64,000 nt of DNA from Gemmatimonadetes bacterium T265. Lineage in GTDB: Bacteria > Gemmatimonadota > Gemmatimonadetes > Gemmatimonadales > Gemmatimonadaceae. Positions 49,909 to 52,699 of the stretch are shown one piece after another. The notes under the pieces are model-generated. The model had not been told where the DNA came from. It saw only the letters and a program-made list of their open reading frames with translations, and searched no databases. Location: contig BPUI01000001.1 in assembly GCA_019973575.1 (NCBI GenBank), forward strand, positions 1,376,342 to 1,440,341, written 5' to 3'. The position numbers were made by a program, and so were the translations under genes. Numbering within the stretch: position 1 is the first letter of the stretch; each line of letters starts with the position of its first letter.

Positions 49909-51408
49909 TTAGGCCCTCCCCCCGAGCACCCCTTCTGCCGCGAGCATTCCCCCCCTCGCCGCCCCTTCGAGCGAACTCGAATGCGCCGTCTCGCTCGCCC
50001 GCCACAACCCCGGCAGCTCCGTCCCCCCCCCCGTCCTCCTCCCCTTCGTCCCCGGCGGCTGCGCGAACTGCGCGTACCCCACCCGCTCCACCGCCACCGG
50101 GGCCAGCGCCGGCACCGGCCCGAGTCCCGCCGCGCGGCGCATCCCCGCCAGCTCCGCGAGCATCCGCGCCGCGAGCACGTCGTCGTCGAGCGCGGCCGCC
50201 GCCCCGACCGCGCTCGCGGCGAGCAGGTGGCGGCCGTGCGGCGCGTCCGCGGCCGCGTACTCGGGCGCGACGTCGGTGAGCGTGACCGCGTGGCTCACCG
50301 CCGGCCGCGGCTCGCCCCCAGTCGACGCGCCGTGCTCCGCGTGCTCGTGGCGCTGCTCGTGGCTCCGCTCGTGGCCCGACGCGTTGAGCCAGATCGCCCG
50401 CCCGGGGAGCGGCGCCTCGTGCGCGGCGAAGTAGAGCGTCGTCGAGCCGAGCGCGTCGGGGCGCCCGTCGAGGGCGACGCCGGCGGTCGCGGCGAGGCGG
50501 GCCGCAGCCGGCGGCTCGGCGGCGAGCACGACGTCGGCGGCCGCGAGGTGCTCGCCGTCGCTCGTCACCACGCCCCGCGCGCGCCCGCCGTCCGCGCGCA
50601 CCGCGGCCACCGTCACGCGCGTGCGCAGCGCGCCGGGCGGCAGCCCCGCCGCGAGCCGCGCGGCCACCGCGCCGATCCCCGCCGCCGGGACGACCGCGTC
50701 TCCCTCGGACAGCATCTTGAACGTGAAGAGCAGGATCGCCGCGCTCGTGCCGAGGGCGGGGTCGAGCAGGATGCCGCCGTAGAACGGCGCGAAGAAGCGC
50801 GCGATCGCGTGGGGCGTGAAGCCGCGCGCGGCGAGGAACGCGCGGGCCGTCGTCCGGTCGTAGCGGTCCGCGAAGCACTCGTCGACCGAGAGCGACGTCG
50901 CGAGCCGCTTGAGGGCGAGCACGCGCAGCTTGTCGCCGAGCGGGAGTGCGCGGGCGAGCGCGGTGCCGGCGAGCATGCGCAGGCTGTCGAGCGGCGCGCG
51001 GAGCGGGGCGCGGAACGCGTCGCCCACGTACGACGCCCCGCCGGCCGTGACGACGCGGGCGGCGGGCGCGAACCGGCGGAGCGCGAGGCCCGCGTCGTCC
51101 TCCCGCGCGTCGCCCGCGAGGGGGGCGAGGCCCAGCGCGGCGCCTAACACCGGGTACGCGGTGAAGAGCACTTGGAAGCCGCGGTCGACCGTGTAGCCGT
51201 CGACGATTCGCGAGCGCGCGCGCCCGCCCGGCTCCGCTTCGCGCTCGAGCACGAGCACCCGCCGCCCGGCCCGGTGGAGCGCGCGGGCGCAGACGAGGCC
51301 CGCGATCCCGGCGCCGACGACGATCACCGGGTCGTCGATCACCGGGTCGTCGATCACCGGGTCGTCGTCCGGCGTCACGCGCCTCGGCGGCGCCGGCTGC
51401 GACGGCAT
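49909..51408 (-). CDS. FAD-dependent amine-oxidase/desaturase-like oxidoreductase
   Basis: 499 residues. Dinucleotide-binding start 'VIVVGAGIAGLVCARALHRAGRRVLVLEREAEPGGRARS' (GxGxxG and the downstream GG-R), 'TVDRGFQVLF', 'FFAPFYGGILLDPALGTS' and a C-terminal FAD-contact 'LPGLWRASETAHSSSLEGAARGGMLAAE'. The overall layout matches the NAD(P)-binding Rossmann/amine oxidase family that includes protoporphyrinogen oxidases and phytoene desaturases. Substrate unknown. Before the Rossmann fold the peptide DDPVI is repeated three times, encoded by a 15-bp tandem repeat. A His/Glu-rich insertion (ASGHERSHEQRHEHAEHGAS) sits around residue 345. Confidence 0.85.
   Translation of the reverse strand: MPSQPAPPRRVTPDDDPVIDDPVIDDPVIVVGAGIAGLVCARALHRAGRRVLVLEREAEPGGRARSRIVDGYTVDRGFQVLFTAYPVLGAALGLAPLAGDAREDDAGLALRRFAPAARVVTAGGASYVGDAFRAPLRAPLDSLRMLAGTALARALPLGDKLRVLALKRLATSLSVDECFADRYDRTTARAFLAARGFTPHAIARFFAPFYGGILLDPALGTSAAILLFTFKMLSEGDAVVPAAGIGAVAARLAAGLPPGALRTRVTVAAVRADGGRARGVVTSDGEHLAAADVVLAAEPPAAARLAATAGVALDGRPDALGSTTLYFAAHEAPLPGRAIWLNASGHERSHEQRHEHAEHGASTGGEPRPAVSHAVTLTDVAPEYAAADAPHGRHLLAASAVGAAAALDDDVLAARMLAELAGMRRAAGLGPVPALAPVAVERVGYAQFAQPPGTKGRRTGGGTELPGLWRASETAHSSSLEGAARGGMLAAEGVLGGRA
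51321..51365. repeat. 15-bp tandem repeat within the flavoprotein gene
   Basis: Three perfect copies of CGATCACCGGGTCGT encode the DDPVI repeat just ahead of the FAD-binding loop. Copy number could vary by slippage without breaking the frame. Confidence 0.9.
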
Positions 51409-51501: not shown

Positions 51502-51717
51502 TTAGCGGGCGCCGACGCGTGAGACGTTCTCGGCCGCCGGGCCCTTCTGGCCCTGCACGATCTCGAACTCCACCGGGTCACCCTCGGCCAGCGTCTTGAA
51601 GCCCTGGCCCTGGATGGCGCTGTAGTGGACGAAGCAGTCCTTCGTGCCGTTGTCGGGCGTGATGAACCCAAAGCCCTTGGCGTCGTTGAACCACTTCACC
51701 TTGCCGGTCGTACGCAT
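51502..51717 (-). CDS. csp: cold-shock domain protein
   Basis: 71 residues, one CspA-type OB fold with RNP1 'KGFGFI' and RNP2 'CFVHYSAI' (Cys where most relatives have Val). '[20 protein letters not shown]' and '[20 protein letters not shown]' are diagnostic. Binds single-stranded RNA/DNA as a chaperone. GAGGAG lies 9 bp upstream of the ATG. A promoter-like pair at 51839-51867 implies a 5' leader of over 100 nt, as is usual for cold-shock mRNAs, and a stem-loop terminator ends the unit. Confidence 0.95.
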
Positions 51718-51838
51718 GCGTTCCTACTCCTCTGAGGTGTTGATTTGTCCAGGGAGCGGAACCCCGTACCCCGACAAACGTCCGCGGGACCTGCGCCCCC
51801 CACGGTGGACCGTCCGGCGCGTCCGCCGGAACGGGGCC

Positions 51839-51867
51839 AACATAGGGGGGGCTGGCACTTGACACAA
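51839..51867 (-). promoter_or_regulatory. sigma-70-like promoter for csp
   Basis: On the minus strand TTGTGT (51867-51862) and TATGTT (51844-51839) are separated by exactly 17 bp. This is unusually AT-rich for the window and would start transcription about 115 bp before the csp ATG. Confidence 0.6.
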
Positions 51868-51911
51868 TAGTGCGTGCGGTGGGGAGCGGGGGTGGTGGGG
51901 CGGGGGACTAC

Positions 51912-52111
51912 GCCGTTGATGGGGCGCTGTTGGTGTAACGCTGTTGACGGGGCGCTGTTGACGGGGCGCTGTTGATGGGGCGCTGTTGAAACGGCGGGTA
52001 CAACCGCGGCCGCGCCCGGACGCGGATGCGTCTCGTCCCGCGCCGTTCCAACAGCGCGGCACCAACAGCGTTACATCAACAGCGCCCCATCAACAGCGCG
52101 GCACCAACAGC
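51912..52111. repeat. 14-bp-periodic array arranged as a large inverted repeat
   Basis: GCTGTTG (first copy GCCGTTG) starts at 51912, 51926, 51940, 51954, 51968 and 51982, always 14 bp apart. After about 50 bp the complement CAACAGC ends at 52055, 52069, 52083, 52097 and 52111, again 14 bp apart. The 7 bases between cores vary (AYGGGGC, GTGTAAC, GTGCCGC, AAACGGC). The two halves can pair into a stem of about 70 bp. There is no coding sequence between 51868 and 52156. Confidence 0.9.
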
Positions 52112-52156
52112 GCCGTCACTCCGCCGTACCACCCGCGCCCCACCAGCCGTCGACCG

Positions 52157-52699
52157 TCAGAACCGCACCCCCACCCGCAGCGGAACGAAGTTGGCGCTCA
52201 CGCCGTCGGTGAACACGCGCGTGTAGCGCACGTCGGCGAACGCGGTCACGGCGACGAGCGGCACCGCGAGCCCGCCGCCGATGTTCACGCCCGCCTTCGT
52301 CCCCAACCCCTGGTTACCGCCGTAGATGCCCACGCCGCCGATCAGGTACGGGCGCACGAGGCTGAGCGCGACGGGGCTCGCCCGAAGCACCACGTTGGCC
52401 GTGCCCGAGATGAAGTGCGCGCTGCCGGATTCGTTCTTGAGGCCGAAGCCCGCGTAGCCGCCCTCGAAGCGCAGGCCGATCGGCAGCACGGGAAGCCGCG
52501 CCTCGACGAGCGCGTCGGCGGTGAAGCCCGTCTTCACGGCGTCGCCGAAGCTGCCCACGGGAAACGCGGGCCCGGCCTCGACGCCGAAGCTGAACGGGTT
52601 CACGCCGGGGACGCCGGGGAGTTGGGCGCGGATCGGGGCGGCGGCCAGGACGATCCCCGCGAACGTGGTCGCGCCGAGCGAGGCGAAGCGTGTGGTCAC
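52157..52699 (-). CDS. outer-membrane beta-barrel protein, OmpX/opacity-like
   Basis: 180 residues. Signal peptide 'FASLGATTFAGIVLAAAPIRAQ', then about eight amphipathic strands with glycine and aromatic girdles: 'FSFGVEAGPAFPVGSF', 'IGLRFEGGYAGFGLKN', 'VRPYLIGGVGIYGGN', 'GVNIGGGLAVPLVAVTAFADVRYTRVF', ending 'VPLRVGVRF' with terminal Phe, the signature for outer-membrane insertion. Function unknown. GTG 52699 selected since it begins the signal peptide. The 14-bp array lies immediately downstream. Confidence 0.8.
   Translation of the reverse strand: MTTRFASLGATTFAGIVLAAAPIRAQLPGVPGVNPFSFGVEAGPAFPVGSFGDAVKTGFTADALVEARLPVLPIGLRFEGGYAGFGLKNESGSAHFISGTANVVLRASPVALSLVRPYLIGGVGIYGGNQGLGTKAGVNIGGGLAVPLVAVTAFADVRYTRVFTDGVSANFVPLRVGVRF

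Follow-up and report, generated by a model that had tools for sequence, protein, structure and literature searches.

The two opposed repeat arrays in the window, i.e. the whole stretch of 64,000 nucleotides analyzed here, are probably an IVP-less, non-autonomous, MITE-like copy from a family of mobile IVP hairpin elements. In its fuller form, such an element consists of a small gene coding for an IVP/S23 four-helix-bundle protein (PF05635) that is enclosed by short-repeat arrays facing each other; in this host, the repeat is a GCTGTTG core placed every 14 bp (2 × 7). PF05635/TIGR02436 is the IVP/S23 four-helix-bundle protein that is encoded in 23S rRNA intervening sequences. Mobility of the family is supported by sequence comparison; we further infer a putative moving enzyme and recognition of the repeat by IVP.

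In the window, the element occupies the intergenic space between a cold-shock protein gene (csp) and a gene for a predicted outer-membrane beta-barrel protein (OMP-like, a label given by eye from the ORF). The features of this region are as follows.

51502..51717, minus strand: gene for a 71-aa cold-shock protein, directed away from the element (ORF; syntenic in G016 and G183)
51862..52154, no strand: whole hairpin element, approximate limits, occupying the csp-OMP intergenic space
51890..51906, plus strand: G-rich outer segment of the left arm, GGGTGGTGGGGCGGGGG, pairing with 52132-52148 (inverted-repeat search and fold)
51912..51988, plus strand: left array, GCCGTTG followed by five GCTGTTG cores in 14-bp steps
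51989..52048, no strand: center, 60 bp, differing from the GGCGGCCCGAGCCGGCCGGGGGCAGCGCCGTTCC-like center of 11 other loci
52049..52111, minus strand: right array, five CAACAGC cores in 14-bp steps
52132..52148, minus strand: C-rich outer segment of the right arm (inverted-repeat search and fold)
52157..52699, minus strand: predicted outer-membrane beta-barrel (OMP-like) gene, reading into the element (ORF, gene call, and synteny)

Exact GCTGTTG cores (n = 5) start at 51926, 51940, 51954, 51968, and 51982, preceded by the variant GCCGTTG at 51912, and the CAACAGC cores (n = 5) start at 52049, 52063, 52077, 52091, and 52105. The core-to-core steps in both arrays are exactly 14 bp, which bears out the six left cores, one of them a variant, and five right cores at strict spacing that a sequence-only reading of this DNA had described; the center, which it had given as 50 bp, measures 60 bp. 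The left-array fillers are, in order, ATGGGGC, GTGTAAC, ACGGGGC, ACGGGGC, and ATGGGGC. The same reading had placed the arrays in non-coding DNA adjoining the cold-shock gene, and the element indeed fills the csp-OMP space, with the stop codon of the OMP-like gene abutting the right arm. The inverted-repeat arms comprise 74 nt with 84% complementarity, and the region 51850-52156 folds as a single long hairpin of roughly -210 kcal/mol (about -208 on the plus and -212 on the minus strand), so that the previously suggested long structured RNA, or alternatively a cruciform, is possible. The 14-bp period does not put the cores on alternating helix faces, as had been assumed, but corresponds to 1.33 turns and rotates them by about 120 degrees per step. 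Apart from these cores, the 64-kb window contains no 7-mer with a period-14 run of at least four units, and 20 block-shuffled windows contained no such run either.

The host genome (Gemmatimonadota; 5.63 Mb, 6 contigs, 97.6% complete) was screened by pattern searches, on which the genome-wide array counts are based. GCTGTTG-N7-GCTGTTG occurs 52 times in forward and 49 times in reverse orientation, compared to zero matches for the reversed-pattern control, and a relaxed pattern groups the host matches into at least 27 loci, of which 25 are on contig C1, one on C2, and one on C3. The search of the host for such runs and inverted pairs, which had been proposed as a check, hence yielded a dispersed family with conserved core and period; a single array produced by slippage plus inversion at one place, the trivial outcome named beforehand, is refuted because the family occurs at 27 loci. 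Two-armed loci carry a GCTGTTG array on the left and a CAACAGC array on the right, and each folds into one large hairpin. With few exceptions, the loci are intergenic and take up the whole gap between adjacent genes; one exception is L044, a single-arm copy within a predicted ORF. The loci other than the window one are situated between or beside predicted protein genes. Ten flanking genes, a subset of the neighbors, were identified as metabolic, transport, regulatory, or protease genes. None of the 27 dispersed loci was recognized beside replication or partition genes, which speaks against the iteron-like replication sites that had been considered. C1 represents 53% of the assembly, and six of its loci are within about 210 kb around dnaA (C1:1341436); GC skew over 20 samples of this contig was too noisy for placing the origin. 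Two further ORFs with a DnaA domain, L051 (C1:2142084) and L052 (C4:5853), have identical scores and lengths and are located on different contigs and opposite strands. Either this segment is duplicated or the assembly contains a repeat here.

Computation over the whole family also confirmed that cores are conserved and fillers vary, as had been noted from the window alone. Among the interior units (n = 65), which were scored as those between exact cores and hence not selected on their own core, 56 have an exact core and nine differ by one mismatch, and the filler follows the consensus R-T-N-N-N-R-C, whose three middle positions contain only 0.3-0.5 bits. The number of units per arm ranges from 2 to 9 and differs among loci and between the arms of one locus. 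A center close to GGCGGCCCGAGCCGGCCGGGGGCAGCGCCGTTCC is common to 11 host loci. Since this center and the core are shared by unrelated sites, the element must have been copied. The loci with a recognizable center are L021, L023, L024, L028, L031, L033, L036, L040, L042, L043, and L087; on both sides of dnaA it has the same orientation along the contig in 10 of these 11 loci, L043 alone being reversed. Complementarity is higher between the two arms of one locus than between arms of different loci (permutation p = 0.0003). A perfect hairpin maintained for pairing was nevertheless rejected, because this effect stems mainly from L025, L030, L033, and L026 and most arms have diverged. An empty-site comparison for L025 was uninformative, its two flanking genes being non-adjacent in relatives. 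The only transposase met inside a copy belongs to an insertion at L034:1625-3020 (C1 near 1684.6-1686.0 kb), which splits the copy C1:1684566-1686089 in its hairpin center and was assigned to the IS256 family from its protein by eye. This IS has its own, different ends (GGCCTGTCCGGAATTTTGTGTGCGGGG...) and is thus a later insertion, and the idea that the arrays are transposon terminal repeats was discarded.

Arms of the window type are also found at IVP loci of the same genome. On C2, arms with GCTGTTG cores in 14-bp steps enclose an IVP ORF (C2:437661; whole element C2:437454-438070) that matches PF05635/TIGR02436, and on C1 a TAG-interrupted IVP gene (C1:852873) abuts an array (C1:853222). 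The sole PDB match of the host IVP is 2gsc (XCC0516, the S23p structure of X. campestris). Some observations count against the preferred reading of the window feature as an IVP-less copy: the IVP-bearing or IVP-abutting copies are few (2 of the 27 loci), one of the two genes is stop-interrupted, another host IVP gene (C1:2787685) lies within a 222-nt inverted repeat that lacks the 14-bp array, and the fourth (C1:1446232) has no flanking inverted repeat.

The gene order csp, OMP-like gene, CcmE-like gene, and ispG is kept in two related genera (G016 and G183). From the csp upstream region (window position 51831) to the OMP gene (52159), the distance is 327 bp in the host compared to 50 bp in G016, and the corresponding space in G183 is about 130 bp long and contains only a small ordinary hairpin. 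Because the window element is absent at this conserved csp-OMP site in both genera, the computed comparison indicates that the window copy probably is a lineage-specific gain of the host; its loss by deletion in both G016 and G183 is possible but less likely. No clear target-site duplication was found at the window site or at the G004/G412 junction described below, and the element ends are degenerate, not sharp. Close to the csp gene, a 15-bp tandem repeat, GATCACCGGGTCGTC, which encodes DDPVIDDPVIDDPVI, was observed at window positions 51326-51374. It is situated at the start of an ORF for a FAD-dependent oxidase-like protein (49909-51408, minus strand), whose true start may be downstream of the repeat.

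In a second genus, an IVP element (L142) keeps two convergent genes of G004 about 700 bp apart. The congener G412 has the two stop codons at this site about 4 bp apart, which represents an empty site, whereas G353 carries opposed GCGGGAT heptamer arrays without IVP and G154 yet another hairpin. Judged from these four states in four species of one genus, the site is an insertion hot spot. The arms of the G004 element recur as IVP-less hairpins at many sites in G004, G382, and G298. In these hairpins (L195-L210), a conserved center of about 150 bp is enclosed by opposed repeats of about 28 bp; this center is a candidate structured RNA. The combination of an IVP-bearing copy and IVP-less offspring is seen in the host and G004, and probably in G006, whose IVP-less opposed arrays consist of a 7-bp GCTGTTG/GCTATTG unit with the same core heptamer as in the host. 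The GCTGTTG-N7 array family itself was found only in the host among 395 genomes of the phylum, G301 of the same family having one plain tandem run, and 40 sampled relatives from the same family and order lacked the array except for the 7-bp satellite of G006 and one single match. The 25 matches in named genomes were dismissed as instances of the same array, all being one-directional tandem repeats with none opposed.

The association between IVP genes and opposed arrays extends far beyond the host and was likewise established by computation. Among 118 genomes from the host's family, 95 contain PF05635, with up to 14 members each. At a score threshold of at least 40, an inverted repeat surrounds the IVP gene in 85% of 27 full-length loci from relatives, compared to 1 of 162 control windows taken from the same IVP loci. 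A larger set of 85 unique IVP loci was drawn from five phyla and one unassigned MAG; with the same threshold, 70 of them are flanked by a long inverted repeat, mostly made of opposed 7-, 8-, or 14-bp arrays. Where the periodicity of the arms is clear, the period is 7 in 43, 14 in 7, 8 in 6, and 28 in 2 cases. The association is also present in Cyanobacteriota, Bacteroidota, Planctomycetota, and Fermentibacteria; inverted repeats flank most tested IVPs from Oscillatoriales, Tychonema, Chitinophaga, a Planctomycetaceae MAG, Fermentibacteria, and the unassigned MAG, a set that was reached via heptamer-like matches and hence is a biased sample. It holds on named plasmids of Calothrix and Nostoc as well. 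On plasmid pNe_5 of Nostoc edaphicum (L259:1453-1821), the genes annotated as the two ribonucleotide reductase subunits are separated by an IVP gene that has opposed TAGGGAG arrays and is located on the strand opposite to both. The search for IVP in phages yielded no match in 50,697 records at the sensitivity used.

With pairs that share homologous flanks removed, IVP identity predicts heptamer identity (r = 0.158, base composition of related genomes being uncontrolled), and none of 5000 permutations (0.001 ± 0.034) reached this value. The clearest covarying pair, L219 and L220, shares 95% IVP identity and the same GGGCAT heptamer in unrelated flanks. Five IVP loci of G005 carry five different heptamers, which speaks against simple inheritance of the arms from a single master copy in each genome; the arms either evolve fast, were acquired separately, or are made locally. 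As a further point against the preferred reading, arrays may instead form locally and then be colonized by IVP genes.

According to an alternative that we regard as unlikely, the hairpins are host-maintained structures at gene 3' ends that end transcription or protect mRNA and grow by heptamer slippage, the IVP genes being secondary passengers inserted into them. The arrangement of the flanking genes, which were called by a home-made codon-usage scorer, would agree with it: of the pairs around 24 host loci, 9 are convergent, 13 co-directional, and 2 divergent, versus 37, 192, and 40 of 269 background pairs from a 360-kb sample of C1, and convergent pairs are enriched accordingly (9/24 versus 37/269, Fisher p = 0.006; p = 0.001 versus gaps of at least 100 bp). 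The convergent L142 site, which in four congeners is empty or holds a heptamer hairpin, another hairpin, or an IVP element, also fits, as does the IS256-family insertion, according to which hairpins do receive insertions. In X. axonopodis pv. citri, moreover, transcripts start or stop more frequently at quadruplex-forming repeats of such a type than at control repeats (PMC4692102). However, the common core at 27 loci and the common center at 11 need copying instead of local growth, and the heptamer varies together with the IVP sequence across unrelated sites. The window hairpin is G+C-rich, but inspection of the sequence revealed no T-run behind it on either strand; with the U-tract absent, it is not a standard intrinsic terminator, and no structure of this type is present at the window site in G016.

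Clearly less probable still is a role in chromosome organization, with a host protein binding the arrays and thereby marking one chromosome part. While the location of 25 of the 27 loci on C1 with six of them around dnaA, and a core conservation that exceeds that of the filler, would be consistent with such sites, the contig bias may reflect replicon history, and apart from the exceptions mentioned above the array was not found in the 40 sampled relatives. Furthermore, the variation from 2 to 9 units, the missing element at the syntenic window site in related genera, and the copies that enclose an IVP gene or an IS argue against this function. REP/BIME-type palindromes whose mobility depends on a RAYT (Y1) transposase, and which share the dispersed intergenic location and the frequent position at gene 3' ends, are already largely refuted and hardly credible as an explanation: a search for Y1 transposases (PF01797) was negative in the nearly complete host genome and positive in 5 control genomes, and arms made of 14-bp arrays do not resemble REP hairpins.

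The preferred reading of a mobile IVP hairpin-element family would imply that the element is propagated as a whole, that IVP acts on its repeat, and that insertions are tolerated mainly at gene 3' ends. The arms could form a cruciform in DNA and one giant double-stranded stem in RNA, and by analogy to reports for 23S rRNA intervening sequences this stem might be cut by RNase III. One may speculate that the 14-bp spacing, with 120 degrees per step, suits a multimeric IVP ring contacting each core. Avd, which presumably is a relative of IVP, works with a reverse transcriptase in diversity-generating retroelements. As a tentative generalization, to which we give somewhat less than even chances, IVP/S23 genes with opposed heptamer arms may be widespread minimal mobile elements of about 0.7 kb with no recognized transposase, for whose movement IVP would either suffice or cooperate with an enzyme of host or foreign origin (e.g. 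a reverse transcriptase); many bacterial heptamer repeats would then be IVP-less offspring and the 23S rRNA intervening sequences a special case. With reasonable probability, the class as a whole represents a type of mobile element that has gone unrecognized. To our knowledge, IVP/S23 proteins still lack an assigned function after decades, and we know of no source for the heptamer repeats that are over-represented in many bacterial genomes. The tie between both across phyla, together with the presence or absence at orthologous sites and the IVP-less offspring, gives them a testable role as a protein-repeat recognition pair in a mobile element, and giant hairpins in intergenic space at the 3' ends of genes could derive from IVP hairpin elements.

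The initial view that no named element has this layout stands in part, but opposed heptamer arrays are described for Xanthomonas (PMC4692102) and heptamers beside IVP for Coxiella (PMC4990558). Such repeats thus are already known, and their general link to IVP is apparently unreported: the searches yielded no paper that connects heptamer arrays generally with IVP genes, with subscription journals and preprints outside reach and novelty therefore unproven. Like bacterial MITEs and REP/BIME, the host elements are small, dispersed, non-coding, intergenic inverted repeats; unlike them, they have arms of variable-length arrays, and a RAYT gene was not found. No transposase with matching ends was met inside a copy, and no clear target duplication was seen at the two sites compared. 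The TAACTGA repeats of Beggiatoaceae, Cyanobacteria, and Bacteroidetes are dispersed intergenic 7-bp direct repeats of patchy taxonomy, for which a mobile source was considered in Beggiatoaceae with no mechanism evident (PMC4679880). Unlike the host arrays, almost all of them are single-direction runs upstream of start codons, with only one inverted repeat in that genome (PMC4679880).

The GGGAATC heptamers of X. campestris and X. axonopodis pv. citri form 70 and 75 opposed inverted pairs and are dispersed, intergenic, and biased to positions near stop codons (PMC4692102). They generally have no known mobile-element association, show high positional conservation between both species, and were not connected to IVP by the authors (PMC4692102). 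X. campestris is also the source of the solved S23p structure 2gsc/XCC0516. The host family resembles the GGGAATC heptamers in its dispersed intergenic short-repeat arrays with opposed pairs and in a bias to positions near stop codons. The unit in Xanthomonas is a plain 7-mer, however, whereas a plain tandem 7-bp unit does not describe the host arrays, in which alternate 7-mers are conserved and the filler 7-mers vary, each unit being a 7-bp core plus a variable 7-bp filler. In the 23S rRNA intervening sequence of Coxiella burnetii, GACAGAT heptamers adjoin the S23p ORF, the ends are complementary, and RNase III cuts (PMC4990558); earlier authors suspected that intervening sequences are transposition remnants or mobile (PMC4990558). 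The host elements differ in that they sit between protein genes, in 27 dispersed copies that mostly lack the ORF, and have long opposed 14-bp arrays as arms; the window copy lies outside rRNA, between the cold-shock and OMP-like genes, and its 60-bp center contains no IVP/S23p ORF. The window element nevertheless shares with the intervening sequences the long stem formed by complementary ends, and the family further resembles that of Coxiella in having a fuller form with an IVP/S23p ORF in the loop, heptameric direct repeats that adjoin this ORF, and ORF decay.
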